IMG/VR virus record: IMGVR_UViG_3300035158_000345
Coordinates: 1-23,392 of that record
Source of the DNA: a virus
Direction: 5' to 3' (one strand)
DNA length: 23,392 nt
Under the pieces are notes generated by a model, which saw only the letters and a list, made by a program, of their open reading frames with translations, was not told the origin of the DNA and did no database searches. Made by a program: the position numbers and the translations under genes. This document shows, piece by piece, positions 180 to 19,945 of this stretch; within the stretch, counting starts at the first letter, position 1; each line of letters starts with the position of its first letter.

Positions 180-2243
180 ATGGCATGGTATAATTTTTGG
201 AAAAAAGAAAATGTGAATGAAGAAATAGATGCTTTCAAAGGCAAAGGAGCAGAAGAAACACCTGATGAAGCACAAGGAGAAGGTTTAGGAGCACTATCTT
301 CCATACCTAATTACGGAGCAGTACAATTAACCAGTTTTAATACTTTCTATAAGAATTATATTAACAAATCATTTAGTACTGAGAAATCAAAAATAATGAA
401 TTATAGAAATATGTCTTCTACTCCTGAAATAGCAGATGTTATAGAAGATGCTGTTAATGAATCCACACAGGAAGATGATGATGGAAATATTATTCATCTA
501 AAGTTAGAAAATGAATTGAATAAGAATGCAACTAATAATGTTTATAGGGAGTTTAATAAATTATTCTATAATAATATAAACATTCAAGAAAAAATTTGGG
601 ATTTATTAAGAACTTATTTTATTGATGGTAGAGTTTATTATGAAAGAATAATAAATGAGAAGAAGAAGCAAGATGGTATAATAAATATAAAAAGACTTCC
701 TTCTGAAACGATGGATTTTGCATATGATACTAATACAGGTAAGGTAAAATTCTTCTTCCAATATCTTTCCGGTAAACCTAAAAGACCTACAAGTATAGAG
801 GAAGCTAAGAAAGATGATAATATTGTAGTATTTAATCCACAACAAATTGGTTATGTGAATTACGGTATATATGGTAGGAATCTAACTGAAATAATGGGAT
901 ATCTAGAGAAAGCAAAAGTACCATATAATCAGTTGAAACTTCTAGAAACTTCGGTTATAATTTATCGTATTGTAAGATCACCAGAAAGATTTGTTTTCAG
1001 AATTGATACAGGTAATATGCCTAAAGAAAAGGCTATGAAATTTGTAGAGAAGATCAAACAGAAGTTTACTAAAAAGCAATCATACGATCCAACAACAGGT
1101 AGATTGACACACGACCCAGAGATCATGTCCCTCTTGGAAAATTTCTTTTTGCCTCAATGCTTACGGACCACTACAACACCGATTGCTCTATTAGATGGTA
1201 GAACAATTATGTTAGATCAACTTATAGATGAGCATAATAAAGGTATTAAACATGAAGTATATTCAGTAAACCAGAAAACAGGTAAAATAATTAGAGGTAA
1301 AGTAAAATGGGCGGGTATAACTCGTAAAAATGCAAAATTAGTGAGGGTTCATTTAGATAATGGCAAATATGTAGATTGCACTCCAGATCATAAATTCGTA
1401 ATGAGAAATGGTAAAGAAATTGAAGCACAAAATCTAAATGAGGGTGACTCTTTAATGCCATTATATAAAAGAGATAAAAAGAATAAATTAGGTAAACAAT
1501 CGTTCTATATCATAATGAATAAAGTTCTAGATTCTAACGATTACACAAATTTAAAACAGAAATTAGTAGTGAACCATAAAGTAGTAAAGGTTGAAAAACT
1601 AGATATAAAAGAAGACACAGGTTGCTTAACTATTGAAGACCCTGGTTCTAATCATAATTTCGCTTTAGGAGTAGGTGTTTTTGTTAAGAATAGTGCTGAT
1701 GGACGTGGCTCTTCCATTGATACGGTTGGTGGTGATGCTAAAGGCTTTACGGAACTTGATGATATTTACTATTTTGCCAGAAAGCTCTATCGGGCATTAA
1801 AATATCCTATATCAAGAGTTATAGCCGCTGAAGAAAAACAACAAGGTGATATTGTATTTGGTGGTACTAATACAGGCGAAATCCAAAGAGATGAGATAAA
1901 ATGGGCCAAGTTCCTAGAACGACAACAAAGTAGATTATGTAGTGATTTTGTTGACTTATTTTTGTTACACTTAGATTTCAAAGGTATGAAGAAACAGTAT
2001 GGACTAAATAAAGATAACATCCGTATTCATATGAATGCACCATCTCATTATAAAGAACAGATGCAACAAAACTTCTTGGAATCAAGATTCAATAATTATA
2101 CAACATTATCAACAAATCCAGAATTCTCAAAATCATACTTAATGGGTAAATATCTTGGTTGGTCAGAAGAAGAAATAAAAGAAAACGCAGAAGGTAAGAA
2201 AAAAGATAAGGAATTTGGTTTTGAAGAAGAGGGAGGATTTTAA
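180..2243 (+). CDS. Portal vertex protein (T4 gp20-like), interrupted by an intein
   Basis: The portal forms the dodecameric ring at the head vertex through which DNA is packaged and to which the neck joins. The 687-residue reading frame starts at ATG 180 behind an AAGGAT Shine-Dalgarno site. The N-terminal part carries T4-portal-like segments (around residue 50 FNTFYKNYINKS; around 260 YRIVRSPERFVFRID). Residues 327-504 are a self-splicing intein; joined exteins give 509 residues, close to the 524 of T4 gp20. The splice junction falls in the conserved stretch FFLP-Q/S-ADGRGSSIDTVGG, followed by the typical DDIYYFARKLYRALKYPISR. The C-terminus is charged and ends in an acidic, Gly-rich tail. 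It is the first gene of a head cluster in T4 order. Without splicing the intein would break a core portal element, so splicing is presumably required for a viable virion. Confidence 0.93.
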   Translation: MAWYNFWKKENVNEEIDAFKGKGAEETPDEAQGEGLGALSSIPNYGAVQLTSFNTFYKNYINKSFSTEKSKIMNYRNMSSTPEIADVIEDAVNESTQEDDDGNIIHLKLENELNKNATNNVYREFNKLFYNNINIQEKIWDLLRTYFIDGRVYYERIINEKKKQDGIINIKRLPSETMDFAYDTNTGKVKFFFQYLSGKPKRPTSIEEAKKDDNIVVFNPQQIGYVNYGIYGRNLTEIMGYLEKAKVPYNQLKLLETSVIIYRIVRSPERFVFRIDTGNMPKEKAMKFVEKIKQKFTKKQSYDPTTGRLTHDPEIMSLLENFFLPQCLRTTTTPIALLDGRTIMLDQLIDEHNKGIKHEVYSVNQKTGKIIRGKVKWAGITRKNAKLVRVHLDNGKYVDCTPDHKFVMRNGKEIEAQNLNEGDSLMPLYKRDKKNKLGKQSFYIIMNKVLDSNDYTNLKQKLVVNHKVVKVEKLDIKEDTGCLTIEDPGSNHNFALGVGVFVKNSADGRGSSIDTVGGDAKGFTELDDIYYFARKLYRALKYPISRVIAAEEKQQGDIVFGGTNTGEIQRDEIKWAKFLERQQSRLCSDFVDLFLLHLDFKGMKKQYGLNKDNIRIHMNAPSHYKEQMQQNFLESRFNNYTTLSTNPEFSKSYLMGKYLGWSEEEIKENAEGKKKDKEFGFEEEGGF
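1158..1691 (+). other. Mini-intein inside the portal gene (178 aa, no endonuclease domain seen)
   Basis: Block A begins at Cys327 (CLRTTTTPIALLDGR). Block B is VDCTPDHKF, with the Thr and His of the TxxH motif. Block F/G is TIEDPGSNHNFALGVGVFVKN, followed by Ser505 as the +1 nucleophile. These are the landmarks of a class 1 intein. The penultimate residue is Lys rather than the usual His, a known but less common variant. Between the splicing halves lie only about 35 residues (roughly KNKLGKQSFYIIMNK to NLKQKL), too short for a LAGLIDADG or HNH endonuclease. This is therefore a mini-intein, possibly with an endonuclease remnant. Boundaries were set by motif and by continuity of the portal sequence across the junction. 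Confidence 0.92.
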
Positions 2244-4186: not shown

Positions 4187-5401
4187 ATGTCTGAAAAAGT
4201 TGATTTAAAAAAACTTATTACTAAATGGGGAGAAATTCTTGATGAAGGTACAGCAATTAAGAATGATAAAATCAAGAAATCTACCGCATTGATGCTCGAA
4301 AACCAATATAACTACATGTCTGAATCTGGTGGTTATACTGAGGGTATGTTCAATAAGTCCGGCGGATATGCAACATCTGGTGAATTTCACAAGATCGCAC
4401 TTCCAATGGTACGAAGAACATTTCCAGAATTAGTAGCACACGACCTAGTTGGTGTACAACCTCTTACTGGTCCTGTTGGTCTAGCATTCGCTCTTAGATT
4501 TAGAGCAGGTCAAACCTATGATGGTCAACCAGCAGGTGAAGAGCTTGGTTATAACACTATTGATAAGGGCTACACTGGTTCTTATGAAACAACCGCAGGT
4601 GAAGCTCTTGGTTCAAAAGCAGGTAGTGGTGTTGGTGATGATATTGGTATCGGAGTAGGTTCTGGTACACATATCAAAGAAGTTAACATGACTGTTGAAA
4701 AAGCACAAGTAGAGGCTAAAACCCGTAAGTTGAGAAGTCGTTGGTCTCTAGAAGTAGCACAAGACTTGAGAGCTATGCACGGTCTTGATCTAGAAGAAGA
4801 AATGATGGATATTCTATCATATGAAATCACAGCAGAAATTGACCGTGAATTGATTGATGCAATAAATGCAGTAGCTAACACAAGTACTTGGAGTTACAAT
4901 ACAAACGCAGATGGTAGATGGGAAGCTGAGAAGTACAGAAACCTCTATAACGAATTGATCCGTAGATCAAATAGAATCGCTGTACTTACAAGACGTGGTC
5001 CAGCTAACTTTATAGTTTGTGCACCTACAGTAGTTGCAGCTCTTGAAGCTATGTCAGCTTACACAATAGCTCCTGTTAACGCTGATGTAAATTCAGCAAT
5101 GACAGGTGTTGCAAGAATCGGTTCTCTTGACGGTAGACTTACTGTTTATAGAGATACTTTCGCAACTGAAACTACCACACCAAGTGGTACAACTTCAGAT
5201 GCAACCTTGGGTTATAAGGGTGCCAGTGAGTATGATACAGGCATCGTTTACTTGCCATATATACAACTTATGTCAAGTAAAGCAACATTTGAAAGTTCAT
5301 TCAATCCAAGTGTAGGTCTCATGAGTAGATATGCAATCCATAACCACTTGTTTGGAGCAGCAAACTACTATCATAAGATCACAATCCAAGACATGCCTTA
5401 A
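4187..5401 (+). CDS. Major capsid protein (T4 gp23-like)
   Basis: This is the hexamer-forming shell subunit with the HK97 fold. The 404-residue product contains the T4-type signature MVRRTFPELVAHDLVGVQP followed by LTGPVGLAFALRFR (residues about 74-108). The C-terminal part reads YLPYIQLMSSKATFESSFNPSVGLMSRYA, as in gp23 homologues. It is shorter than T4 gp23 (521 residues). In T4 the gp21 protease removes the N-terminus after (L/I)xE; the short N-terminal region here contains LDE and MLE candidates, and I cannot say which is used. An excellent AGGAGG ribosome site precedes ATG 4187, and the gene ends 29 bases before a strong terminator. It follows the scaffold gene by 32 bases and probably shares its late promoter. 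Confidence 0.95.
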   Translation: MSEKVDLKKLITKWGEILDEGTAIKNDKIKKSTALMLENQYNYMSESGGYTEGMFNKSGGYATSGEFHKIALPMVRRTFPELVAHDLVGVQPLTGPVGLAFALRFRAGQTYDGQPAGEELGYNTIDKGYTGSYETTAGEALGSKAGSGVGDDIGIGVGSGTHIKEVNMTVEKAQVEAKTRKLRSRWSLEVAQDLRAMHGLDLEEEMMDILSYEITAEIDRELIDAINAVANTSTWSYNTNADGRWEAEKYRNLYNELIRRSNRIAVLTRRGPANFIVCAPTVVAALEAMSAYTIAPVNADVNSAMTGVARIGSLDGRLTVYRDTFATETTTPSGTTSDATLGYKGASEYDTGIVYLPYIQLMSSKATFESSFNPSVGLMSRYAIHNHLFGAANYYHKITIQDMP

Positions 5402-5461: not shown

Positions 5462-5502
5462 ATGCTTGGGTTTTTATAGATTACGATATTGGTGTTTACT
5501 TT

Positions 5503-5510
5503 TATAAATA
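5503..5510 (+). promoter_or_regulatory. T4-type late promoter box before the homing endonuclease
   Basis: An exact TATAAATA lies 20 bases upstream of the ATG at 5531, between the capsid terminator and the endonuclease. A transcript starting here would have a very short leader with no clear Shine-Dalgarno site, which may keep the endonuclease weakly translated. Confidence 0.6.
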
Positions 5511-5530
5511 ATAGTGATACCATTATAATT

Positions 5531-6952
5531 ATGAAAAGACTTGATTTCTCAAAAATAACAAAATCATTTGAATCTGAAGGATATAAAGTTATCAGTAAAC
5601 CTTCTGAGTATAAGAATAATAAATCTAAAATAAGATTTATCTGTCCTAAAGGACATGAATATTATATAGATTGGATACATTGGAAGAGAGGTCAAAGATG
5701 TGGTAAATGTAGAACTAATGCGCCTGTTGATTTTAATAGAGTTAAAAAATCTTTTGAAAAGGAAGGATATAAGCTCTTAGAAACTAAGTTTGAAAATTCT
5801 AAAAGTAAAATGAGGTATGTATGCCCTGAAGGGCATATAAACTTTGCAACTTGGGATAATTGGGAAAGAAGGAAAGCAAGATGTCCTACATGTGCTGGTA
5901 ACGCAAGGATAACATTTGAAAAATTTAAAGAATCGTTGGAAAGAGAAGAATATAGAATACTTTCAAATAAGGAAGAATTAAAGAATAGTAATACAAAAAT
6001 AGATTATATATGCAATAAAGGACATAAAAATAAAACTAATTGGAATTATTGGAATGCAGGTTTGAGATGTCCTGATTGCAGGAAGACTGTTTCCGACCAA
6101 GAAAGAGAAATAAGGAAATATCTACAATTCAAAGGAATCAAATACTTACATAATGTAAGAAATATAATACCACCACAAGAAGTTGATATTTATATACCTG
6201 AATTAAAAATAGCTATAGAGTATTGTGGTATATACTGGCATTCAGAACTACAGGGTAAGGATAAGAATTATCACCTTAGTAAGTTGGAAAGATGTTTAAA
6301 TAAAGGTATTAAATTAATAACAATATTTGAAGATGAATGGATGAATAAAAGAGAGATAACAAAGTCAAGATTATGTCATATATTAAAACTCAATACGAAT
6401 GGTAAAATATATGCAAGGAATTGTCATGTAGGAGAAATTAATACTAAAGATGCCACTAATTTTGTAAATAAATATCACCTACAAAATTATACTCCTTCAA
6501 GAATAAAATTAGGAGCATTTAATAACCATGAGTTAGTAGCTGTTATGACATTTTCAAAACCTTCATTATCTAAGGGTCAAAAAAGTAGAAGTGAAAATAT
6601 ATGGGAGTTATCAAGATTTTGTACATCAAAACCAGTCATAGGTATAGCATCCAAGTTGTTAAAGTTTTTCCAAAGGAATTATGATTATAAAGAAATATTT
6701 TCATATGCTGATAGAAGATGGAGTATAGGAAACGTATATGAAAAAATTGGTTTTGAGAAAGTGGGTTATACAAAGCCTAATTACTGGTACTTTAAGAAAA
6801 ATAATACTGATAATATGAGAAGATACCATAGATTCAACTTTAGAAAAGATAAAATAAACATAGATAATGAAGAAATGACTGAATGGGAACTAATGATGAG
6901 AGGTGGTTGGGATAGAATATGGGATTGTGGTAATATAAAATACAGAATATAA
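5531..6952 (+). CDS. Free-standing homing endonuclease, EDxHD / Vsr-like family, with three N-terminal zinc-finger repeats
   Basis: This gene probably encodes a selfish nuclease that cuts phage alleles lacking it. The 473-residue product begins with three tandem units of about 60 residues, each pairing a (F)xxGYK-type helix with a zinc finger: C38/H42 with C57/C60, C98/H102 with C118/C121, and C161/H165 with C180/C183. These probably read the DNA target. The nuclease core follows: EVDIYIPELKIAIEYCGIYWH (about 217-237), the Vsr-like EDxHD signature known from I-Bth0305I-type enzymes. A third domain (about 295-425) with LGAFNNHELVAVMTF, WELSRFC and NVYEKIGF is common in this phage family and of unclear role. 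I chose ATG 5531 because the zinc repeat begins there; a TTG at 5489 would add 14 residues and would lie upstream of the promoter box. No strong ribosome site is seen. Confidence 0.85.
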   Translation: MKRLDFSKITKSFESEGYKVISKPSEYKNNKSKIRFICPKGHEYYIDWIHWKRGQRCGKCRTNAPVDFNRVKKSFEKEGYKLLETKFENSKSKMRYVCPEGHINFATWDNWERRKARCPTCAGNARITFEKFKESLEREEYRILSNKEELKNSNTKIDYICNKGHKNKTNWNYWNAGLRCPDCRKTVSDQEREIRKYLQFKGIKYLHNVRNIIPPQEVDIYIPELKIAIEYCGIYWHSELQGKDKNYHLSKLERCLNKGIKLITIFEDEWMNKREITKSRLCHILKLNTNGKIYARNCHVGEINTKDATNFVNKYHLQNYTPSRIKLGAFNNHELVAVMTFSKPSLSKGQKSRSENIWELSRFCTSKPVIGIASKLLKFFQRNYDYKEIFSYADRRWSIGNVYEKIGFEKVGYTKPNYWYFKKNNTDNMRRYHRFNFRKDKINIDNEEMTEWELMMRGGWDRIWDCGNIKYRI

Positions 6953-7032: not shown

Positions 7033-7527
7033 ATGCCAGAATTAGACCTTGATGGACTTAATGAACAGTTTGATATTGACGCATTAGAAGAAAATGCTGA
7101 TGAGATAACTGAAAACCTTAGACATTCTGAAACTTCAGAGGATCCTCAAGAAGTGTTACAAGATAATATTAGTAGAGCTAATCGTATTCTTGATAGGATT
7201 GAAGATGAAATGGAGAATGGTAATTTTACAGCCAGGATGGCAGAAGTTGCAGGACAAATTATCAACTCAGTCACAAATGCAAGTGGACAGATAATGTCAG
7301 ACAAATATAATGAAAAATATTTACAAGTTAGGAACAATCTTGTAAAATTGAAAGCAGCTGAAGTTAGATTAAAGGCTAAGGAAATTGAAGGAAAAGGAAG
7401 AAGTAATAGAGAGTTGATAGTCACTGATAGAGAATCCATAATGAAAATTTTAAACGGTGAAAATCAAGAGGAACCTAAACAGATTGGTGAAAGTAAAAAC
7501 AATCAAAATGACCAAAATGAAAAATAA
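7033..7527 (+). CDS. Small terminase subunit (T4 gp16-like)
   Basis: TerS recognises phage DNA and regulates the large terminase during packaging. The 164-residue product equals the length of T4 gp16. It shows the T4-type pattern: an acidic N-terminus, a central coiled-coil beginning QDNISRANRILDRI, then ARMAEVAGQIINSVTNAS, which matches the EVAxxLIxxV..S segment of cyanophage and T4 TerS proteins. Near the C-terminus RELIVTDRESIMKIL corresponds to the conserved xxVFVGSxxELxxxL element. The tail is Asn/Gln/Glu-rich and disordered-looking. Start ATG 7033 follows GAGGGTGAG. In T4, gp16 directly precedes gp17; here over 5 kb of accessory genes separate them. Confidence 0.8.
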   Translation: MPELDLDGLNEQFDIDALEENADEITENLRHSETSEDPQEVLQDNISRANRILDRIEDEMENGNFTARMAEVAGQIINSVTNASGQIMSDKYNEKYLQVRNNLVKLKAAEVRLKAKEIEGKGRSNRELIVTDRESIMKILNGENQEEPKQIGESKNNQNDQNEK

Positions 7528-7529
7528 AG

Positions 7530-7558
7530 TTTACATATAGAAGCTATTATGTTATTAT
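7530..7558 (+). promoter_or_regulatory. Host-type (sigma-70/sigma-A) promoter before prkA
   Basis: TTTACA (7530-7535), a 17-base spacer and TATTAT (7553-7558) start three bases after the small terminase stop codon. The predicted leader to ATG 7619 is about 55 bases and ends with a TTGGAGG ribosome site. It is well placed to drive the prkA-yhbH-spoVR module on its own. Confidence 0.65.
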
Positions 7559-7618
7559 TGTAATACAAAACATGGGCGTGTCACAAGTACCATACTAAGA
7601 GAGAATTGGAGGATTAAA

Positions 7619-9583
7619 ATGTTAGAAGCGAATAAGGATTTTAGAGACATTATTTTAAATCAAAGGAAAGACAAGAAACAAGAAACGTGGGCTGGGACTT
7701 GTTTGGACTATCTTTATAAGGTTCAGGAAGACCCTTCTGTTTCCCAATTCGCTGCAGGTAGAATCTACAACATGATCATGAAGCATGGTGTTGAAGAAGT
7801 AGATTCATCCTTGAAAACTAGAGGTTATGAAGACTTAGTAAATTATAACTTCTTCAAGGATAAAATTTTTGGTTCTCATAAGCCTATTCACGACCTTATG
7901 AGATTTCTAAAAGCTTCTGCACGAAGAACAGAAACAGGTCGAAGGATTCTTATAATGGTGGGTCCTGTAGCCTCTGGTAAGAGTACACTAGCTTATCTTA
8001 TTAAGAGAGGACTTGAACAAGATGACACTCCAGCTTTTGGTATTAAGGGTTGTCCTATTCACGAAGACCCCTTACACTTGATTCCTCTTGAGGATAGAGA
8101 TTACTGGCGAGAACAACTAGGAATCAAAATTGAAGGTGTTGTATGTCCTGTCTGTCAGCAGATGCTTGATGAAAAGTATACCGATGAAAAAGGTGTTGTA
8201 AAATGGGACGAAGTTCCTGTTGAGAATATTAGTTTCTCCGAACAACGCCGTATCGGTATCGGTACATTTCAACCTTCTGATCCTAAAAGTCAGGATGTCT
8301 CTGAGTTGATTGGAAGAGTCAACATGTCTAAAATTGCTAGGTTCGGTGAAACTGATCCAAGAGCATATCAGTTTGATGGAGAAATGCAAATCGCCAATCG
8401 TGGTATGGTAGAAATGGTTGAGCTTTTGAAAACTGATATTAAACTTCAATATGTTCTTATCAGTGCAGCTCAGGAACAGCTTATCAAATCTCCTGGGTTC
8501 CCACAAATGTATGTTGATACATTGATTCTAGCACATACCAACCAAACAGAATTCGATTCATTCAAAGCTGAAAAGAAAAATGAGGCTTTGCATGATCGTA
8601 TGTACCCTGTAACAGTACCTTGGAACCTTCGAGTGGATGATGAAATCAAGATTTATGAAAAGTTAATTAATGAATCTGATTTTAGAAATATTCATATCGC
8701 TCCATATACTTTGAAAGTAGCAGCACAATTCGCTGTTCTCTCAAGATTGGAAAGTTCAAATAAGGTGTCTTCCATGGTAGAGAAAATGAAGCTTTACAAT
8801 GGTGAAGTTACAGAAGAGTTTAAGAAACATGATATTGATGTGAAAACCCTTGTACAAGAAGGTATAGATAAGGGTGAAGGTATGAGTGGAGTTTCTCCAA
8901 GATTTATCATCAATGCACTCAATGTAGCACTTGGTATGAAAGAAGACAAAAGTTGTATTAATCCTATTGATATTATCAGAGCATTGAGGTCAAATTTCGA
9001 TCATCACATTGGAATTACTGATGAAGAAAAAATCAATTATCTTAATATCCTACTTGGTGAAAAAGATTCTGTAAGCTCGGAATATAAAGACTTGGCTAAG
9101 AAGGAAGTCAACTTCGCATTCCTGTCAGCTTATAATGAGCAGGCTCAAAGCTTATTTGAAAATTATATCACCAATGCAGAGGCTTACTGTAAAAAGGAGA
9201 AAGTATATGACTCCATTACAGGGGAATACTCAAAGCCTGATGAAAAGCTAATGAGGTCTATTGAGGAATTAATCAGTGTACCAGTAAACTCAAAGTCTGA
9301 GTTTAGAAACGGTATCTTTGTGTATAAGTCTACGGCTGTAGAGAAAGGTGAGAAATTTACCTATAAGACATACAATCCTCTTCGTCAAGCTATTGAAAAG
9401 AAGCTTTTCGGAGACTTGAAAAATGTCGTATCTCTTACAATCGCTGATAAAACAGTCACAGGAAAGAGATCAAAAGCAAAACGTAAAAGTGCCATCAAAT
9501 CTCTTGAAAAGAGAGGTTACTGTGTACATTGTGCCGAAATGTTGTTGTCATTTGTGGGTGAAATACTTCGCAAGGAGGAGTAA
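7619..9583 (+). CDS. prkA: PrkA family AAA+ serine kinase/protease (YeaG/PrkA-like)
   Basis: PrkA proteins are AAA+ ATPases described as serine kinases and, more recently, as ATP-dependent proteases. They act in Bacillus sporulation and in enterobacterial starvation responses. The 654-residue product is full length (cellular forms are about 630-645). It has the N-terminal WAGTCLDYL and RIYNMI motifs, Walker A GPVASGKST at 115-123, and the conserved KGCPIHEDPLHLIP block (from about 143). GTFQPSDPKSQD, RAYQFDGEMQIANRGMVE and LAHTNQTEFDSF follow, and the C-terminal kinase-like half has AYCKKEKVYD, PDEKLMRSIEE and EKKLFGDLK. From memory these match the Bacillus form more closely than E. coli YeaG. 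A CPVC pair near residue 180 is an extra feature. The N-terminal domain and C-terminal half appear intact, so it is likely active. The gene begins the accessory module behind its own host-type promoter. Confidence 0.95.
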   Translation: MLEANKDFRDIILNQRKDKKQETWAGTCLDYLYKVQEDPSVSQFAAGRIYNMIMKHGVEEVDSSLKTRGYEDLVNYNFFKDKIFGSHKPIHDLMRFLKASARRTETGRRILIMVGPVASGKSTLAYLIKRGLEQDDTPAFGIKGCPIHEDPLHLIPLEDRDYWREQLGIKIEGVVCPVCQQMLDEKYTDEKGVVKWDEVPVENISFSEQRRIGIGTFQPSDPKSQDVSELIGRVNMSKIARFGETDPRAYQFDGEMQIANRGMVEMVELLKTDIKLQYVLISAAQEQLIKSPGFPQMYVDTLILAHTNQTEFDSFKAEKKNEALHDRMYPVTVPWNLRVDDEIKIYEKLINESDFRNIHIAPYTLKVAAQFAVLSRLESSNKVSSMVEKMKLYNGEVTEEFKKHDIDVKTLVQEGIDKGEGMSGVSPRFIINALNVALGMKEDKSCINPIDIIRALRSNFDHHIGITDEEKINYLNILLGEKDSVSSEYKDLAKKEVNFAFLSAYNEQAQSLFENYITNAEAYCKKEKVYDSITGEYSKPDEKLMRSIEELISVPVNSKSEFRNGIFVYKSTAVEKGEKFTYKTYNPLRQAIEKKLFGDLKNVVSLTIADKTVTGKRSKAKRKSAIKSLEKRGYCVHCAEMLLSFVGEILRKEE

Positions 9584-9592
9584 TACCTGGTA

Positions 9593-9760
9593 ATGAATAT
9601 CAAAGACAAGAAAGACGGTACAATTTATAAGGTATTGGGGAGCTTGTATATAGAAAATAAGTATGTATATAAGCTCCTCAATTCTAAAACAAACAATTAC
9701 GTTTATTTACCAAAAAACAGAGTTAAAAAAGTTAGTAAGGAGAAGAAAGATACCCTTTAG
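9593..9760 (+). CDS. Small basic protein of unknown function between prkA and yhbH (55 aa)
   Basis: An ATG at 9593 opens a 55-residue frame ending at TAG 9758-9760. It fills the gap between prkA and the yhbH-like gene almost exactly. GGAGG lies at 9573-9577, a somewhat long 15 bases upstream. The product is Lys-rich with alternating beta-type residues (GTIYKVLGSLYIENKYVYKL, then YVYLPKNRVKKV), compatible with a small beta-barrel fold. I do not recognise a family. Its placement within the module suggests an adaptor or regulator specific to the phage, but this is only inference. Confidence 0.6.
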   Translation: MNIKDKKDGTIYKVLGSLYIENKYVYKLLNSKTNNYVYLPKNRVKKVSKEKKDTL

Positions 9761-9774
9761 TTGGGAGAAATAAT

Positions 9775-11091
9775 ATGGCTATTGTAGATCATAAAGATTG
9801 GGATTTAAGTGAGAAAGGTAAGAAAGATGCATCCCGCCACCGAGAGAAAATAGATGAACACATCCGAAAAAATATTAAGGATGTTATTTCAGAAGAATCT
9901 ATTATCACCAAGAAAGCAGGTAAGAAGGTAAAAATACCTGTAAAGGGACTCAAGGATTACCGATTTGTTTACGGTAATGACGGTAAAGGTGGTGGTGTTG
10001 GTCAGGGTGAAGGAGAACCTGGAGATGTTGTTGGTAGACGACACAAACCTGGTCAAGATGGTGAAGAGGGTAAAGCAGGTAACAAACCAGGTGAAGATTA
10101 TATGGAAACAGAAGTTGATATTGATTACTTAATTGATATTATGTTTGATGATCTTGGTTTACCTTATATCGAAGAGAAAACAAAAGCCAAACAACTTGTT
10201 CCAAAAGGATGGAAATTTGAAACTGTTTCCAAGAAAGGTACATATCCTAGAATACATAAGAAGCGAACATTTAAAGAATCTATCAAAAGAACCGAAATGT
10301 TCTCTTATGAAATAATGGAGGAAACAGGTTGCGACAAAGATGATGCTTATAGAGCTCTTACACAAGGGAAGGGTGATATAGAAGAGGCTATAAGAATCAT
10401 CAAAGATGATGAACTGGATAAGTCTATTGATCCTAATATTTATATTGAGGATGATGACCTAAGGTTCAAGCAAATAGAGGAAGATGTTGAACTACATTCA
10501 AATGCTGTTGTATTAGCAATGATGGATGTTTCTGGTTCAATGACAACCAAAAAGAAATATCTAGCAAGGTCAATGTTGTTTTGGCTTGTGGAGTTTCTTA
10601 AAAAGACATATGAATTTGTTGAAATACGATTTATTACACACACCACTGAAGCGAAACTTGTTGATGAACATGAATTTTTCTACAAAGGAGAAAGTGGTGG
10701 TACCATGTGTCATACAGCATTTGATAAAGCTAACTATCTGATTGATACACAGTATCCTGTAGATGAATGGAATGTATATTCAATTTATATCTCTGATGGT
10801 GAAGATTTTACACCTGATAAAACAATGACATCTGTTCAACAAATGATTGATAAGAAAGTCAACATGGTGGGTTATTGTGAAATCTGTATGGAAGATGGAT
10901 TTTTTATGCCTGGTGGTAATACACTCATAAAAGATTTCCAGAAGAAATTTCAATTCGATAGGCATTATACTGAATTGGGTACGGATTTCTATAAAAATGG
11001 TGAGAAACGGTTGCTATGTTGTGTAATAAAGAATAAAAAACATGTATATCCAGCACTAAAACATTTTCTTTTTGAAAAGAGGAAGAAGTAA
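9775..11091 (+). CDS. yhbH: YhbH/YeaH family (DUF444) von Willebrand-A protein with a UBA-like insert
   Basis: This family is encoded beside PrkA and SpoVR in bacteria and is thought to be a PrkA partner. The 438-residue product has the family N-terminus (DHKDWDLSEKGKKDASRH) and a flexible Gly-rich linker (about 68-107). It also has the LPY/KKRTFKESIKR middle and a C-terminal VWA domain: MIDAS DVSGSM at 251-256, then FFYKGESGGT and YISDGED. Compared with Bacillus YhbH (about 392 residues, from memory), an extra segment of roughly 45 residues lies between KESIKR and the VWA domain. That segment (about 176-211: MEETGCDKDDAYRAL then GDIEEAIRII) reads as a UBA/EF-Ts-N-type three-helix domain. ATG 9775 follows GGGAG. 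Nine bases separate its stop from spoVR, so the two are co-transcribed. Confidence 0.92.
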   Translation: MAIVDHKDWDLSEKGKKDASRHREKIDEHIRKNIKDVISEESIITKKAGKKVKIPVKGLKDYRFVYGNDGKGGGVGQGEGEPGDVVGRRHKPGQDGEEGKAGNKPGEDYMETEVDIDYLIDIMFDDLGLPYIEEKTKAKQLVPKGWKFETVSKKGTYPRIHKKRTFKESIKRTEMFSYEIMEETGCDKDDAYRALTQGKGDIEEAIRIIKDDELDKSIDPNIYIEDDDLRFKQIEEDVELHSNAVVLAMMDVSGSMTTKKKYLARSMLFWLVEFLKKTYEFVEIRFITHTTEAKLVDEHEFFYKGESGGTMCHTAFDKANYLIDTQYPVDEWNVYSIYISDGEDFTPDKTMTSVQQMIDKKVNMVGYCEICMEDGFFMPGGNTLIKDFQKKFQFDRHYTELGTDFYKNGEKRLLCCVIKNKKHVYPALKHFLFEKRKK

Positions 11092-11100
11092 GGAGATATA

Positions 11101-12669
11101 ATGAAAAAGAACGATTTAAAAAGGTTAATCAAAGTAGAAGATAGAATAAAACAAATCGTTACAGAAGAATACGGTCTTGAATGTATGCCTATAGAATTTG
11201 ATGTTGTTCCTGCACCTAAAATGCTGGAGATTATGGCATATAGGAGTCCTGTAAATATCTCTAATTGGAAATTTGGTAGGGACTACGAGCGTCTAAGAAC
11301 TATACATGAAAATGTTGATCCAGGTTTACCTTACGAAGTTGTTATTAATTCAAACCCTTCAAGAGCATATTTGATGAATGACAATACTTTCGCGGTTCAA
11401 GCTTTGGTAATGGCCCATGTTTATGGTCATGTTAACTTTTTTACAGAAAATAATTGGTTCCAAAAGTCAAGAAGAGATATAACACAATTTATGGCTGAGG
11501 CTAATAGACGTTTCAATAAGTATGAAAGGCGTTTTGGTATTGATGAGGTTGAAACCGTTGTGGATGCAGGACACGCACTTCAACTCCACTCAAACCCATT
11601 TGATGATGAAACCGAAAAGGAAAAAAGAGAAAGAATTTATGAACAAAAAAAGATTGTAAAGAATGTTTCAGAATCATCGTCGGAATACGGTGACCTTACT
11701 TTTATAAACAAAAAACCTGTTGGAGGTGAAACTGACATAGCACTGGAAAACGAAAGGTTGTGGAGAAAATTAAAACTCACAACACCTGTAGAACCTACCG
11801 AGGATATTCTTAGGTATGTTATTGATAACTCTCGCGTCCTTGAAGATTGGCAGAAAGATATATTAGAAGTTTTAAGGATTGAAGGTCAATATTATTGGCC
11901 TGTTATAAAAACTAAATATATGAATGAAGGCTGGGCTACCTATATACATCAAAAAGTAATGAAGCAACTATTTGATGAGGGTATTTTAACTCAAAGCGAG
12001 CACGGTCAATTTAACTATTCTAATTCACTTGTAAAAGCTGAAAATCCACATACTTTGAATCCTTATCTTGTCGGTTCTAAAATGTGGGAAGATATAGAAG
12101 AAAGATGGAACAAAGGAAGGCATGGTTTTAAGTTTGATAACTGTGAAAGAACTGAAGAAAAGGAAAAATGGGATACAAAAGAAATGAAAGGTGAGGAAAA
12201 GATTAGAGAAATCATGAGGTCATATACTGATTGGTTCTTTATGCAAGACTTTCTCACTAGTAACTTAGTTGATAAATTAAACCTTTATGTCTTTCGACCC
12301 CAAGACATGATGACACATATAGATTATGTCAGAACTGGCCATAAGGCAAATGATGTAAGGCAGCTAATTGTGAATAGTTTTGCACATAGCGGTATACCAA
12401 AAATTGTGGTGAAAAATGGTAATGTAGAAAATAAAGGTGTTATGTTCTTACTACATAAGCATAGCGGAGCAAATTTAGATAAAAAATATGCAGAAGAAAC
12501 ATTACAACATATATATAGGTTATGGGGTAGACCTGTATTATTAGAAACAAAGAATAATGATCAAAGGATTATAGTTAAAGTGGAATCAGAATCAGATAAA
12601 AGAAATGTTATAAATTCTGATTCTACCTTCTTTAATCCTTTTGAACAAACTAATTTCTTCCAGTTCTAA
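11101..12669 (+). CDS. spoVR: SpoVR family protein (SpoVR/YcgB-like)
   Basis: SpoVR is required for normal spore cortex in Bacillus; its homologue YcgB belongs to a stationary-phase regulon in enterobacteria. The biochemical activity is not established. The 522-residue product carries the family landmarks: SNWKFGRDYERL, VINSNPSRAYLM, then VMAHVYGHVNFF with His106 and His110. These are followed by RRDITQFMAEANRRF, LEDWQKDILEVLR and MNEGWATYIHQ (Glu276, His283). NPYLVGSKMWEDIEERWN and LYVFRPQDMM lie further on, with LYRLWGRPV-like residues near the end. The H-x3-H plus NEGWA arrangement resembles a metalloenzyme site. It is longer than Bacillus SpoVR (about 468), with extra sequence at residues 165-230 and a C-terminal tail ending PFEQTNFFQF. 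ATG 11101 follows AAGGAGATATA. A terminator closes the module. Confidence 0.95.
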   Translation: MKKNDLKRLIKVEDRIKQIVTEEYGLECMPIEFDVVPAPKMLEIMAYRSPVNISNWKFGRDYERLRTIHENVDPGLPYEVVINSNPSRAYLMNDNTFAVQALVMAHVYGHVNFFTENNWFQKSRRDITQFMAEANRRFNKYERRFGIDEVETVVDAGHALQLHSNPFDDETEKEKRERIYEQKKIVKNVSESSSEYGDLTFINKKPVGGETDIALENERLWRKLKLTTPVEPTEDILRYVIDNSRVLEDWQKDILEVLRIEGQYYWPVIKTKYMNEGWATYIHQKVMKQLFDEGILTQSEHGQFNYSNSLVKAENPHTLNPYLVGSKMWEDIEERWNKGRHGFKFDNCERTEEKEKWDTKEMKGEEKIREIMRSYTDWFFMQDFLTSNLVDKLNLYVFRPQDMMTHIDYVRTGHKANDVRQLIVNSFAHSGIPKIVVKNGNVENKGVMFLLHKHSGANLDKKYAEETLQHIYRLWGRPVLLETKNNDQRIIVKVESESDKRNVINSDSTFFNPFEQTNFFQF

Positions 12670-12698
12670 AAAAACTTCTAACTAGCCTCCTTTGATAT

Positions 12699-12735
12699 AG
12701 CCTGGTTCCTAATTATTTAGGAATCAGGCTTTTTT
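12699..12735 (+). terminator. Rho-independent terminator after spoVR
   Basis: A 14-bp stem (AGCCTGGTTCCTAA with TTAGGAATCAGGCT, one G-U pair) with a 4-base loop runs into a T tract. It marks the end of the accessory module and isolates it from the large terminase unit. Confidence 0.9.
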
Positions 12736-12752: not shown

Positions 12753-12760
12753 TATAAATA
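12753..12760 (+). promoter_or_regulatory. T4-type late promoter box before the large terminase gene
   Basis: An exact TATAAATA lies after the spoVR terminator and 35 bases before ATG 12796. It restarts virion-gene transcription for the terminase, neck and tail-terminator genes. Confidence 0.65.
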
Positions 12761-12795: not shown

Positions 12796-14355
12796 ATGGC
12801 TATATCGTATGACCAACATGTTAAAAGACCACATCAAGAATTTGAATATGAACCAGAACATATAAAAGAGTTACAATTATGTTCTGAAGATATATATTAT
12901 TTTTTGAAGTATGTAAAGATAGTCAATCCTGATAGAGGAGAAGAATTTTTTCAACCATATGATTATCAGGTTCAATTATTAAAGAAATTTCAGCATCACA
13001 GATTCAACATTTGTTTATTATCTAGACAATCAGGTAAAACAACAGTTGTGGCTGTATATGCTTTATGGTATAGTATTTTCAATCCTGATAAAGTAATTGG
13101 TATTGTTTCCAATAAAGAATCTTCAGCTAAAATGATTCTAGCAAGGATAAGAAGAATGTATGAATGTTTACCTGTTTGGTTAAAACCAGGTGTAAAAGAT
13201 TATAGTAAAACATATGTAACATTCGATAATAATAGCCAAATAAAAATATCTGCTACTTCTGAAGATGCATTTCGTGGTGAATCAATGAACTTGTTGATAT
13301 GTGATGAGTTTGCCTTTGTTGCGCAAAACCAAGCAGAAGAGTTTTGGGCTTCAAACTATCCAACTATATCAGCATCTAAAGAAGCGAAAATTGTTATTAT
13401 TTCTACTCCAAATGGAATGTTCAATATATTCCACAGGTTATATTCTCAAGCAGAGAGAGGAGAAAATACTTTTGCCCATACTAAGGTCTCATGGGATGAA
13501 GTACCTGGTAGAGATAAAAAATGGGCAGATGAACAGTTAAAGAATCTTGGTAAACAGAAATTCAGACAGGAGTTTGCAGTAGAATTCTTAGGTTCTACAA
13601 ACACTGTAATAGACCCAGATGTTCTAGAAAATATAGTTTCTCAATGGGAAGATCCTATACATATTGATTTAAGGGGTAAGTTAAGAATATTTGAAAAACC
13701 CTTAGAGAGAGAAATATATGTTATGGGAGTTGATGTAGCCAAGGGAACAGGTGAAAATTCATCAACTATACAAATACTTAAAATTCTAGGTTTGAAACCT
13801 ATTAAAATGGAACAAGTTGCTGTTTATGAAAGTAATATGATTGATGTTTACCAGTTTACAGAAGTTGTAAATAGGTTATCATTTTATTATAAAAATGCTT
13901 TTATTATGTGTGAGAATAATTCAGAAGGAGCAGCAATTGTAAGTAGGTTATGGTGGGAACATGAAAATCCAAATTTGGTAAATAGTGGTTCTAAGAACGT
14001 TGACCTTGGTATAAGAGCTAAAAGAACAACAAAACCGAAAGCTGTTCTCCTTATGAAAAAACTGGTTGAAGATCATGCAATTAAGTTAATTGATAAGGAA
14101 ACATTAAACCAGTTAACTACTTTTATAGAAATATCAGATAATAAGTTTAGTGGTAAAGATATGCCGGATGATTTAGTATCAGCACTATATTGGGCATGTT
14201 ATGTCTTTGAAATGAATGTGTTCTCTGAAGGATATGAATTGAAGAGATATGGTGAAGATGAGGGTGAAGATACTGATATTTGGGGTATCTTAGGAGACAT
14301 TGAAGAAGATGTAGAAAATTGGAATTGGATGAAAGATATTGATCTTATAGGATAA
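12796..14355 (+). CDS. Large terminase subunit, ATPase/nuclease (T4 gp17-like)
   Basis: TerL is the packaging motor that translocates DNA into the prohead and cuts concatemers. The 519-residue product shows an adenine-binding region (QPYDYQVQLLK, about 53-63) and Walker A SRQSGKTT at 76-83. Walker B plus catalytic carboxylate is NLLICDE, about 165-171, and the coupling motif is STPNG (203-207). The C-terminal RNase H-fold nuclease has Asp313 (GVDVAKGTG), Glu373 (CENN) and Asp458/459 (MPDDLVSALYWA). It is shorter than T4 gp17 (610). No intein is present, although TerL is a common intein site. ATG 12796 follows an AGAGGATGG site. The gene leads a tightly packed neck operon; the next start is 11 bases after its stop. 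Confidence 0.96.
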   Translation: MAISYDQHVKRPHQEFEYEPEHIKELQLCSEDIYYFLKYVKIVNPDRGEEFFQPYDYQVQLLKKFQHHRFNICLLSRQSGKTTVVAVYALWYSIFNPDKVIGIVSNKESSAKMILARIRRMYECLPVWLKPGVKDYSKTYVTFDNNSQIKISATSEDAFRGESMNLLICDEFAFVAQNQAEEFWASNYPTISASKEAKIVIISTPNGMFNIFHRLYSQAERGENTFAHTKVSWDEVPGRDKKWADEQLKNLGKQKFRQEFAVEFLGSTNTVIDPDVLENIVSQWEDPIHIDLRGKLRIFEKPLEREIYVMGVDVAKGTGENSSTIQILKILGLKPIKMEQVAVYESNMIDVYQFTEVVNRLSFYYKNAFIMCENNSEGAAIVSRLWWEHENPNLVNSGSKNVDLGIRAKRTTKPKAVLLMKKLVEDHAIKLIDKETLNQLTTFIEISDNKFSGKDMPDDLVSALYWACYVFEMNVFSEGYELKRYGEDEGEDTDIWGILGDIEEDVENWNWMKDIDLIG

Positions 14356-16049: not shown

Positions 16050-16871
16050 ATGAAAAGTTTTTATTATTATAAGGCGTTAAGAAAGACCATAATTCAATTT
16101 TTGGATCTTTTCAATGACATTCAGATAGCTAGATATGATCCGAATGGTAATGTAAAGAAAATGATAAAGTTACCATTGAAGTTTTCTCCTAAGAAAAAAG
16201 TATGGTATTGGATACATGAGAAGAAAGAAGATGAGGTATTACCTATTCTTTCCTCACAAATGGAATCCCTTGAATATTCTACAGAAAGACAAGTAAATAA
16301 GTTCAGGAAAATTGTAGAATCTTCAGATGAAGAAGTTGAAAAGATAATAAGTAGATACTTAAATCCTGTTCCATATGATATTACCTTTACATTAAATATA
16401 TGGTCTTTACATATGGTTGATGTTGATCAAATTTTGGAACAAATATTACCGTACTTTAGTCCTAACGCTTTTATAAGAGTTAAGATACCTGAACTAGATG
16501 CAACATTTGAAGTAAAAGTTCTCTTCCAATCGGCTAACCCTGACTTAACATATGATATGAGTGAGGAAGAAGTGAGAATATTAAAATGGGATTTATCTTT
16601 TATAGTTCAGACATACTTATTCTTACCTGTAAATGATGAGAAATTAATAAAAGAAATAATATCTAAAATATATGTAAATAAAAATGTACTAGATGAGAAC
16701 ATTGGAACAGAGAGTACATTTACTTCAGGAGCAAGTGGTGCTGAAGATGAGGCTATTTGGCTAAAAGCCCTAGAGACTGTTAACCCTTCTGCTGCAAGTG
16801 CTTCTCCAATGGAGAGTATATATTATGATGAAGATGTAAAACTATTATATAAATATGAGATATTTGACTAA
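16050..16871 (+). CDS. Tail sheath terminator / tail completion protein (T4 gp15-like)
   Basis: gp15 caps the finished tail and joins it to the neck. The 273-residue product is nearly the same length as T4 gp15 (272). It has the family outline: YYYKALRKTIIQFLDLFNDI at the N-terminus, MIKLPLKFSPKKKVW, VPYDITFTLNIWSLHMVDVD, then QILEQILPYFSPNAF. The C-terminal 50 residues are Ala/Ser-rich and less recognisable. It starts at ATG 16050, only 3 bases after gp14, with no strong Shine-Dalgarno. Its stop overlaps the next start in a TAATG, so gp14, gp15 and the following tube-like gene are probably translationally coupled. Confidence 0.85.
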   Translation: MKSFYYYKALRKTIIQFLDLFNDIQIARYDPNGNVKKMIKLPLKFSPKKKVWYWIHEKKEDEVLPILSSQMESLEYSTERQVNKFRKIVESSDEEVEKIISRYLNPVPYDITFTLNIWSLHMVDVDQILEQILPYFSPNAFIRVKIPELDATFEVKVLFQSANPDLTYDMSEEEVRILKWDLSFIVQTYLFLPVNDEKLIKEIISKIYVNKNVLDENIGTESTFTSGASGAEDEAIWLKALETVNPSAASASPMESIYYDEDVKLLYKYEIFD

Positions 16872-17371
16872 TGAATAATACAAATCTAGATAAAGCAAAT
16901 GCAACAAGTTTTGAATTAGTGTTTCCTAAAATACCAACTGAAAAAGGTATAAGAGCTTCAGAAGAATTAACATTAAACATCTTTGAAACTATTATTCCAT
17001 CTGTTTCTATAGATGCTAATGAACAAAATTGGCAAGGATCCAAGATTCAACTAGATGGAGGCAAGACAACATTTGAACCATGGACAGTAAATTTCGTTGT
17101 TGATTCAGATTTCAGGAATTGGAAAATGATATATAGATGGTTTATGTTTATTGCCAATAATAAGGATAAGTTTGGTGAAATTAGAAATAAATACACGGTA
17201 GACGCTAGACTTACAATATTAGATAATTATAGGAATAATATACTATCAATGAAATTTGTTAGTGCATGGCCTACAATGCTTACCGAAGTTAATCTTACTT
17301 ATAGAGAAGCGGAACCTAATTTAGAAGCATTGATAAACATAGCTTATGATTATTATGAACTTATAGAGTAG
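16871..17371 (+). CDS. Tail-tube-fold protein, first copy (tube terminator gp3-like or gp19-like)
   Basis: The 166-residue product resembles phage tail-tube proteins. It has a beta-rich N-terminus, the NWQG element at 53-56 (shared with the second copy, where it is at 64-67), and WTVNFVVDSDFRNWKMIYRWF. T4 gp19 is 163 residues. Lying immediately after the sheath terminator gp15 and before the sheath, it may instead be the tube terminator (T4 gp3, 176 residues, same fold); the sequence alone does not decide. Its ATG overlaps the gp15 stop by one base. Its 3' end overlaps the convergent minus-strand RHH gene by 19 bases, so antisense transcription would pass into it. Confidence 0.7.
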   Translation: MNNTNLDKANATSFELVFPKIPTEKGIRASEELTLNIFETIIPSVSIDANEQNWQGSKIQLDGGKTTFEPWTVNFVVDSDFRNWKMIYRWFMFIANNKDKFGEIRNKYTVDARLTILDNYRNNILSMKFVSAWPTMLTEVNLTYREAEPNLEALINIAYDYYELIE

Positions 17372-19396: not shown

Positions 19397-19945
19397 ATGG
19401 CTGAAGAAAAACTAGTAGATGGTTTTAACATTGATAAATTTAGAAGTAATTTTCAAGCTGGAGCAAGACAATATCTATTTTATATGAGGCCAAATATGCC
19501 TGTTAATGGTTTTGATCCCAATAAGAGTATATATTTGGTTAGATCAACTAATTTACCAGAAGCCACGTTGGAAGAAACTATGGTAAATTGGCAAGGTTAT
19601 GATTATAAAATGGCCAGTAAATATACTTATGCAGATTGGGAAGTAACCTTTAATGTTGATATACAAGCAGATATACATAAATGGTTCACAAAATGGATGG
19701 AATTAACCCATAACTCGGAAACAAATGTACATGGTCTTCCCGCTGAGTATATGGCAGACCAACGAGTTCAGCTTCTTGATTTGAATGGTGATCCGATAAT
19801 AACATACTTACTATTAGGTGCTTGGCCTGGTACTGTAGGAGCGATTGACTTGGATTATTCAGGAACAGAAGTAGCACAATTTCCTGTTACCTTCAAATAT
19901 CAAAGACATGAAATAAATTATATTGATGGTGTATCATATAGTTAA
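19397..19945 (+). CDS. Tail tube protein (T4 gp19-like)
   Basis: The 182-residue product follows the sheath gene directly, as gp19 follows gp18. It shows the T4-type tube features: QYLFYMRPNMP near residue 25, YLVRSTNLPEATLEE, and NWQGYDYKMASKYTYADWEV (64 onward). VTFNVDIQADIHKWFTKWME and a C-terminal beta-strand FPVTFKYQRHEINYIDG follow. It polymerises inside the sheath to form the DNA conduit. An AAGGAGGATATAAA site precedes ATG 19397. It shares the NWQG element and overall pattern with the gene at 16871 but is clearly a separate protein; this is the likelier main tube subunit. Confidence 0.88.
   Translation: MAEEKLVDGFNIDKFRSNFQAGARQYLFYMRPNMPVNGFDPNKSIYLVRSTNLPEATLEETMVNWQGYDYKMASKYTYADWEVTFNVDIQADIHKWFTKWMELTHNSETNVHGLPAEYMADQRVQLLDLNGDPIITYLLLGAWPGTVGAIDLDYSGTEVAQFPVTFKYQRHEINYIDGVSYS

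Follow-up and report, generated by a model that had tools for sequence, protein, structure and literature searches.

The window analyzed here is a 23,392-nucleotide stretch of viral DNA (IMG/VR record IMGVR_UViG_3300035158_000345, positions 1 to 23,392) that carries homologs of PrkA, YhbH and SpoVR between the genes for the small and large terminase subunits (Table 1). The genes flanking the trio encode a T4-type portal, prohead protease, gp23 major capsid protein, TerL, neck, sheath, tube and baseplate hub, and the homologs of gp20, gp21, gp23 and gp17 together with the late promoter motif TATAAATA identify the virus as a T4-type phage. The first-pass annotation did not recognize the gene directly upstream of prkA as TerS, an identity that places the three genes between the two terminase subunit genes. 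The window's TerS matches the terminase small subunit family phrog_445 over its full length with an E value of only 0.0067, and 7 of 9 aligned relatives match this family with a best E value of 3.9e-5. Scans for Rfam families and tRNAs found nothing in the window. That a small gene is conserved between prkA and yhbH as a general component was considered and rejected, as the corresponding gaps in relatives hold unrelated small ORFs and homing endonucleases; peptides resembling the window's small ORF occur in L023, L071 and L079, and gap content differs among relatives. A bacterial prophage remnant was also rejected given the virion-gene flanks and the presence of a single distant TerL relative (34%) among 84,980 bacterial and archaeal genomes. 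This relative resides in a Robiginitomaculum MAG and is too distant for host assignment.

Table 1. Features of the terminase-trio region, in positions of the 23,392-nucleotide window.
Feature	Position	Strand	Basis or remark
gp23 major capsid protein, upstream neighbor of TerS	4187..5401	+	PF07068 E 2.3e-97
TerS, small terminase subunit (T4 gp16-type), 164 aa	7033..7527	+	first gene of putative late operon
PrkA, AAA+ ATPase (AAA_PrkA + PrkA C-terminal domain), 654 aa	7619..9583	+	Pfam
55-codon small ORF between PrkA and YhbH, status uncertain	9594..9761	+	read from sequence
YhbH (DUF444), VWA/MIDAS-domain protein, 438 aa	9775..11091	+	Pfam/NCBIfam
UBA/TS-N-like insert in YhbH, residues 173-218	10291..10428	+	profile comparison
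SpoVR, 522 aa	11101..12669	+	Pfam
Intrinsic terminator closing the putative TerS-trio unit	12699..12730	+	14-bp stem, 4-nt loop, T-run
T4-type late promoter motif TATAAATA	12753..12760	+	43 nt ahead of TerL start
TerL, large terminase subunit (gp17-type)	12796..14355	+	PF03237 E 1.8e-17, phrog_5989 E 2.2e-61

The first-pass annotation described three full-length genes in bacterial order with intact motifs inside a virion gene cluster, a description that stands on all of these points. PrkA contains full-length AAA_PrkA and PrkA C-terminal domains, with matches to PF08298 (E 3.6e-111) and PF06798 (E 7.6e-71) that span nearly the whole protein at 372 and 239 bits versus Pfam cut-offs of 25. Its Walker A sequence is GPVASGKST at residue 115, and residues G115/P116/K121/S122, N260, E265, E268, N308, R327 and R428 are invariant in 83 of 83 aligned sequences. 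From general knowledge of AAA+ proteins we take these to represent Walker A, Walker B-like glutamates, sensor 1, the arginine finger and sensor 2. Outside of its own family the PrkA profile finds its best AAA+ matches among Lon proteases and not MoxR proteins, with RavA matched weakly. A PrkA homolog has been solved (9xip), and the nearest sampled bacterial PrkA is that of Thermomicrobium at 44% identity. For PrkA of B. anthracis, both kinase and protease activity in vitro are reported to be negligible (PMC13001217).

YhbH matches the DUF444 family over nearly its whole length (E 1.4e-93, 314.7 bits) and scores 346.7 bits against the equivalog cut-off of 467.95 for NCBIfam TIGR02877 (sporulation protein YhbH), so that it is a family member rather than an equivalog. 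Its MIDAS site is complete (DVSGS at 251, T310 and D341), and residues D251, S253, S255, T310 and D341 are invariant across 75 aligned sequences. A search of the PDB with the YhbH sequence returned nothing useful; its AF2 model resembles VWA folds, including the MDN1 MIDAS domain 8ql1. In contrast to the sampled bacterial YhbH proteins, the phage protein has an added UBA/TS-N-like insert. The insert is present in 72 of 72 aligned members of the lineage and absent from YhbH of five bacteria, two huge phages and LAU1, as well as from that of L047, L048, L117 and L119-L125. As judged by sequence, it is seen solely in the present phage lineage among the YhbH copies compared. Individual Pfam UBA families hit as many as 12 of 16 insert segments (UBA_4 12/16, UBA_HYPK 10/16, best E 2e-5), with the window's own segment scoring under the Pfam gathering score for these families. 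With the insert profile, archaeal NAC (1tr8, 4.2e-6) and EF-Ts (0.0022) are found as well, and the AF2 model predicts three helices in this region (162-184, 188-197 and 202-210) with a pLDDT of about 90.

SpoVR matches PF04293 (E 3.3e-101, 339 bits) and SpoVR_C (E 4.2e-12, 46 bits) over almost its entire length, and falls below the NCBIfam equivalog cut-off with 234 of 679 bits. It contains the motifs H106-x3-H110 and NEGWA with E276, in addition to conserved H158 and H163; H106, H110 and E276 do not vary in an alignment of 82 sequences, nor among 50 divergent phage sequences. The catalytic glutamate of an HExxH motif is missing, as no Glu follows the first His in the window (HVYGH) or in the aligned sequences shown. 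A sequence search against the PDB gave nothing useful and Foldseek found no significant match to the AF2 model (pLDDT 86). Among the top rows of a VIA-align second look were 3o0y (Z 12.4), 3iuk (10.7), APN (10.3), LTA4H (9.2) and M32 (9.1). From this second look and the motif, and from these two sources only, the SpoVR model appears to have a metallopeptidase (gluzincin)-like core.

PrkA, YhbH and SpoVR co-occur throughout an uncultured T4-type lineage, where they are located between TerS and TerL. PrkA lies directly 3' of TerS in every relative with sequence available there, and SpoVR is located upstream of TerL in 57 of the 58 relatives that were selected by TerL and whose contigs provide at least 2.5 kb of upstream sequence. 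One relative (L037) has its TerS-trio-TerL block on the strand opposite to gp23, portal and sheath, which indicates that the block stays together as a unit. Median dN/dS values for the trio are 0.103, 0.104 and 0.131 versus 0.087 for TerL and 0.144 for gp23. The histories of the trio proteins and TerL are congruent (Mantel r 0.71-0.87, with 0 of 999 permutations as high), and PrkA of the lineage forms one clade with an SH-aLRT of 100 and a long stem, in a tree where bacterial sampling consists of plasmid-borne copies only. Decay of the genes in relatives was considered and rejected. Eight PrkA or SpoVR matches located away from contig ends cover less than 85% of the model and one YhbH (L026) is over-long, and all of the odd ORFs that were fully read (three PrkA, three SpoVR and one YhbH) contain in-frame inteins; the remaining two shortened loci (L107 and L109) span the same stretches as the intein-bearing ones. 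In relatives, inteins are located within active-site motifs of all three proteins.

As far as gene order and sequence divergence tell, the trio is a fixed core component of this lineage that is preserved as strongly as the capsid and packaging genes. The first-pass annotation had argued for selection on joint function, which it proposed to check with trees, dN/dS, synteny beside terminase genes and a search for decay. This argument is borne out by co-occurrence of the genes, virion-like purifying selection (dN/dS 0.10-0.13), congruent histories, a monophyletic phage PrkA clade and the fixed TerS-TerL position. Cellular homologs exist for all three families, as they would if a host operon had recently been captured by neutral processes and carried as auxiliary cargo of no lasting importance. 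However, such a capture is contradicted by the data and hardly credible: the trio is fixed across the lineage, evolves under purifying selection and is inherited along with TerL, PrkA has a long stem and the YhbH insert is specific to the clade.

According to the first-pass annotation the trio is also self-contained, with a promoter and a terminator of its own. The terminator is upheld by the hairpin that follows spoVR, and a terminator is also present after spoVR in 19 of 39 relatives with a gap of 30-400 nt versus 0 in shuffles. The promoter is not upheld: the region contains 56 sigma-70-like matches, that at 7530-7558 among them, and chance alone would give 43 +/- 6. Among relatives, TATAAATA occurs within 120 nt upstream of TerS in 31/58, TerL in 43/72 and sheath in 20/20 cases, versus 0/70 for PrkA, 0/77 for YhbH and 0/87 for SpoVR. 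The exact motif precedes TerL in 59% versus 4% in shuffles and TerS in 51% versus 3% when shuffled. In the window itself the region upstream of TerS has no exact late motif, the best being TATAAAAA with one mismatch, 85 nt upstream. Gaps between TerS and PrkA have a median of 25 nt, with the genes overlapping in 15 of 56 relatives, and no terminator was found in 24 testable gaps. Upstream, a terminator is present in all 22 relatives with gp23-TerS gaps of 30-400 nt. Given the lack of a late promoter before the trio genes and the short or overlapping TerS-PrkA gaps, late expression of the trio on one transcript with TerS is most likely. Rather than being self-contained, the trio would belong to the transcription unit of TerS. 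A terminator-like hairpin occurs in 13 of 36 PrkA-YhbH gaps, and YhbH and SpoVR may therefore at times be transcribed apart from PrkA.

This predicted timing bears on the first-pass proposal that the trio may serve to block or redirect sporulation of the host, to exploit it, or to enter spores. There is precedent for such a role in that SpoVR of B. subtilis acts in spore cortex formation (as cited in PMC12456014), B. anthracis needs PrkA to sporulate (PMC13001217) and phages carrying sporulation regulators exist (PMC10294663). However, an early developmental switch of the host is at odds with transcription of the trio late and together with TerS, and no sporulation-related gene other than these three families was found in the window or the flanks examined. 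Furthermore, the trio is not specific to sporulators since it is also common among non-sporulating bacteria, such as E. coli (yeaGH; PMC10954441), and occurs on Pseudomonadota plasmids and in Thermus phages. We regard a sporulation or spore-targeting role as very improbable.

Comparison with other carriers indicates that the trio is not confined to this lineage. The bacterial module (prkA/yhbH/spoVR in B. subtilis; yeaG/yeaH plus ycgB in E. coli) comprises the same three full-length families with the same catalytic motifs, and plasmid copies from Thermomicrobium and Pontibacillus have the identical PrkA-YhbH-SpoVR order. The phage trio differs from the bacterial module in its location within a late cluster between TerS and TerL, and in a PrkA that forms its own clade. 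Thermus phages phiYS40, TMA, phiLo, MN1 and Lalka also carry the complete trio, but in the order YhbH-SpoVR-PrkA and with PrkA proteins that are 31-36% identical and form a separate clade. Huge or jumbo phages (LR7565xx/LR745206 records) likewise contain PrkA, YhbH and SpoVR homologs, with three of the four records examined having a YeaG-type PrkA that groups with Pseudomonadota. Overall, the PrkA tree contains five further groupings of trio-bearing phages, three of which have the trio beside helicase/RNR, GroEL/PhoH or RNA ligase/methyltransferase genes and not packaging genes. The trio in these other phage groups appears to be of separate origins.

We give an even chance to the interpretation that the trio is a phage-maintained, ATP-driven remodeling machine, core and late in this T4-type lineage and probably directed at the host. 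PrkA would form an AAA+ ring that performs ATP-dependent mechanical work, and YhbH would be an adaptor that grips clients via its MIDAS site, following the logic of RavA-ViaA, NorQ-NorD and midasin, and in the present lineage also via the added UBA/TS-N-like domain. SpoVR would be a metal-binding effector or client, with its invariant His/His/Glu and a predicted metallopeptidase-like core without the HExxH glutamate. As would hold for PrkA and YhbH, an AAA+ ATPase is paired with a MIDAS-bearing VWA partner in RavA-ViaA, NorQ-NorD, CbbQ-CbbO, Mg-chelatase I/D and midasin. The phage system differs by the addition of a third protein, SpoVR, and by a PrkA that is nearer to Lon than to MoxR; the MoxR/VWA-type pair is used here as an analogy of working principle alone. 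The likeliest target would be the host cell late in infection, in keeping with how the cellular module acts, with metabolism or the envelope held in a quiescent, stress-like state as virions are assembled and packaged. Counting against this reading, phage genes that act on the host are usually expressed early and not late. In its favor are the neighbors of the trio in other phage groupings and the observation that E. coli YeaG and YeaH jointly act as a metabolic brake in starvation (PMC10954441).

Location between TerS and TerL could equally signal a role in assembly or packaging, in which case the machine would remodel the TerS ring, the terminase on the portal or the prohead, with the UBA-like insert serving as a phage-specific client grip. 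The invariable position of the trio in the lineage, its close spacing with TerS, its virion-like selection and the intact L037 block are all in line with such a factor. So is the location of the trio in the unrelated Thermus phages, where it lies between a minor head protein and TerL in Lalka27b and about 1 kb from TerL in phiYS40, although both neighborhoods differ from the T4-type gp23-TerS-trio-TerL arrangement. Elsewhere, however, the trio is far from TerL, at about 60 kb in the L125, L123 and L121 contigs and at tens to hundreds of kb in huge phages, one record of which has the trio split over two places. The trio of other lineages adjoins replication or metabolism genes, and T4-type phages of the annotated collection package DNA without it, PrkA being present in 16 records versus 2670 with a related TerL. 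An assembly or packaging factor seems somewhat unlikely. We consider it rather unlikely that in the present lineage a cellular machine has been turned into a dedicated part of virion production, namely a late AAA+/MIDAS remodeler with a UBA-like client grip that is required for terminase or prohead function. If true, this would be a component of a type not known from studied tailed phages.

The trio might instead dismantle or inactivate a host anti-phage complex. This would explain its repeated acquisition by unrelated phages, as phage PrkA occurs in several separate tree groupings, and AAA+ remodelers are suited to taking complexes apart. Counter-defense is nevertheless quite improbable since the predicted late expression comes late for such a role, the trio is fixed in the lineage and not patchy, and no defense or counter-defense gene adjoining the trio was found in the window.

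Although PrkA, YhbH and SpoVR are found widely among bacteria, to our knowledge there is no settled biochemical function for the trio. A phage lineage with a core late trio, an altered YhbH and active-site inteins provides a compact, independent system for finding the client and the mechanism. Since spoVR in this lineage appears to be part of a core late operon and not optional metabolic cargo, labels such as "sporulation" or auxiliary gene on virome spoVR (e.g., PMC8940887) may mislead. SpoVR and PrkA have also been reported in Ralstonia phage RsoM2USA (PMC8504454).

The 23.4-kb virus record is that of a T4-type phage, and the Pfam matches to its PrkA, YhbH and SpoVR (the trio) are full length for all three proteins. 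None of them reaches its NCBIfam equivalog cut-off and they are therefore divergent members of their own families. The 164-aa protein directly upstream of PrkA is the small terminase subunit (TerS), as phrog_445 is matched by this protein in 7 of 9 relatives (best E 3.9e-5), with the window copy on its own giving a weak match (0.0067). This assignment places the trio between TerS and the large subunit, TerL. The endonuclease ORF that precedes TerS has a Mom-like C-terminal match as well as CapR/zinc-ribbon matches, and ORFs akin to it sit elsewhere in relatives, on both strands.

Features of the window, in gene order
Feature	Position	Strand	Remarks
Portal, gp20-type	180-2243	+	In-frame intein, splicing domain about residues 333-504
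Prohead protease, scaffold-like protein, gp23 (major capsid protein)		+	
HNH/Mom-like endonuclease ORF	5489-6952	+	Between gp23 and TerS; homing-endonuclease type; listed start TTG
TerS (164 aa)	7033-7527	+	
PrkA	7619-9583	+	
YhbH	9775-11091	+	
YhbH insert	10291-10428	+	Residues 173-218
SpoVR	11101-12669	+	
TerL	12796-14355	+	
Neck, tail-tube, sheath, baseplate-hub and tape-measure-like genes		+	
Two tail-tube paralogues	16871-17371; 19397-19945	+	Flank the sheath gene
End of tape-measure-like ORF	23200-23391	+	At window edge; repeat of about 10-20 residues (RISPEVDTP / RIVAETVTP)

Scans of IMG/VR with PrkA, SpoVR and TerL recovered the order gp23-TerS-PrkA-YhbH-SpoVR-TerL in many contigs. A TerL alignment was used as a query so that loci were not picked by the trio itself, and among the best 80 loci obtained in this way SpoVR lies upstream of TerL in 57 of the 58 with 2.5 kb or more of sequence before that gene. 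The sole exception has just 3.2 kb upstream; the SpoVR-TerL distance elsewhere reaches 5.6 kb. The trio is a lineage-wide core feature of these uncultured phages. Additionally, one relative (L037) carries the TerS-PrkA-YhbH-SpoVR-TerL block on the strand opposite to its gp23, protease, portal, sheath and tube genes, so TerS-trio-TerL holds together as a unit.

The T4 late promoter TATAAATA lies in the 120 nt before TerS (31/58), TerL (43/72), sheath (20/20) and scaffold (25/45); at this distance it never precedes PrkA (0/70), YhbH (0/77) or SpoVR (0/87). Against shuffled controls, the exact motif is enriched before TerS (51% vs 3%) and TerL (59% vs 4%) and stays at background level before the trio genes. 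The TerS-PrkA gap has a median of 25 nt, with the genes overlapping in 15 of 56 cases, and no terminator was found in 24 testable gaps. Terminators follow gp23 (22/22) and SpoVR (19/39), with none in shuffles of either gap. We infer that TerS-PrkA-YhbH-SpoVR form one late unit and that TerL is driven by its own late promoter, although hairpins occur in 13 of 36 PrkA-YhbH gaps and the window's own TerS lacks the exact motif.

Median pairwise dN/dS is 0.103 for PrkA, 0.104 for YhbH and 0.131 for SpoVR, compared with 0.087 for TerL, 0.144 for gp23 and 0.155 for TerS. Pairwise distances of the three trio proteins and TerL are correlated (Mantel r 0.71-0.87, 0/999 permutations). In the PrkA tree every sampled lineage member falls into a single group on a long stem (SH-aLRT 100), separate from the bacterial sequences sampled and from those of other phage groups (L047/L120-L125; L048/L119; L117; Thermus phages; huge phages). 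Because bacteria are represented by plasmid copies only, this tree does not fix the donor or the exact number of acquisitions.

The AAA+ motif residues of PrkA, the YhbH MIDAS and SpoVR H106, H110 and E276 are invariant among aligned sequences. PrkA matches its direct homologue 9xip among PDB sequences, followed by Lon proteases and, weakly, RavA. The predicted YhbH model adopts a VWA fold and matches, among others, the MIDAS domain of midasin; an insert that is UBA/TS-N-like by profiles and modelled as three confident helices precedes the MIDAS domain of YhbH. All 72 aligned YhbH proteins of the lineage have this insert, which is absent from the bacterial, huge-phage and Enterobacter phage LAU1 copies compared and from the other phage groups of the alignment; it is a lineage-specific domain. 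For the SpoVR model (pLDDT 86) Foldseek gave no match, and a VIA second look returned DUF885, aminopeptidase N, LTA4H, M32 and ACE-type metallopeptidases (Z up to 12.4). Despite these rows SpoVR is not filed as a peptidase, because it lacks the glutamate of HExxH.

Inteins tend to be retained in active-site motifs that are essential. Intein domains were identified in segments that interrupt the trio proteins of relatives in frame: in PrkA after SDPK of a conserved motif (L027/L107 and L011) or close to the Walker B region (L113), in YhbH at the MIDAS T310 loop (L026), and in SpoVR within NEGWA, immediately past E276 (L042, L162, L043), the site at which SpoVR of L109 is also interrupted. Given this tendency, their positions suggest, as support rather than proof, that the trio is important and catalytic. 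In L011, TerL is encoded in three pieces that lie apart from one another. None of the literature searched, whose coverage is incomplete, describes the TerS-trio-TerL arrangement across the lineage, the late wiring, the UBA-like insert or the inteins.

A role in virion assembly would fit Thermus phages, whose trio genes are annotated, as the trio of Lalka27b is flanked by a minor head protein and TerL and that of phiYS40 is near TerL. However, other phage groups hold the trio beside non-packaging genes, such as DnaB, other helicases and RNR (L048, L119), GroEL and PhoH (L125), or RNA ligase and a DNA methyltransferase (L117), and in IMG/VR contigs of other groups and in huge phages, which also have the trio genes, it is distant from TerL wherever TerL was located. 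Virion assembly is an unlikely, if still sizeable, alternative. What the phage groups with the trio have in common is the machine, not terminase. E. coli YeaG and YeaH jointly quiesce metabolism under nitrogen starvation (PMC10954441; PMC4664914), and PrkA of B. anthracis, an AAA+ protein whose kinase and protease activities in vitro are negligible, is required for sporulation and osmotic stress (PMC13001217). On these grounds we favour, with about even confidence, a trio that would act as a late remodelling machine directed at the host; counter-defence seems improbable and sporulation slightly more so.

SpoVR and PrkA have been reported in Ralstonia phage RsoM2USA (PMC8504454), and spoVR was the most abundant of the sporulation-labelled viral genes in an oxygen-minimum-zone virome (PMC8940887). 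SpoVR lies about 240 kb from PrkA-YhbH in huge phage LR756502.1 and a few kb away in LR756504.1. The LAU1 record opens with YeaG and YeaH, and its PrkA groups with E. coli; these genes appear to be chromosomal host DNA bordering a prophage, not phage cargo. A divergent complete trio with a long PrkA branch, which could be of phage-like origin, sits amid small hypothetical genes on the 898-kb Pontibacillus plasmid NZ_CP062975.1.
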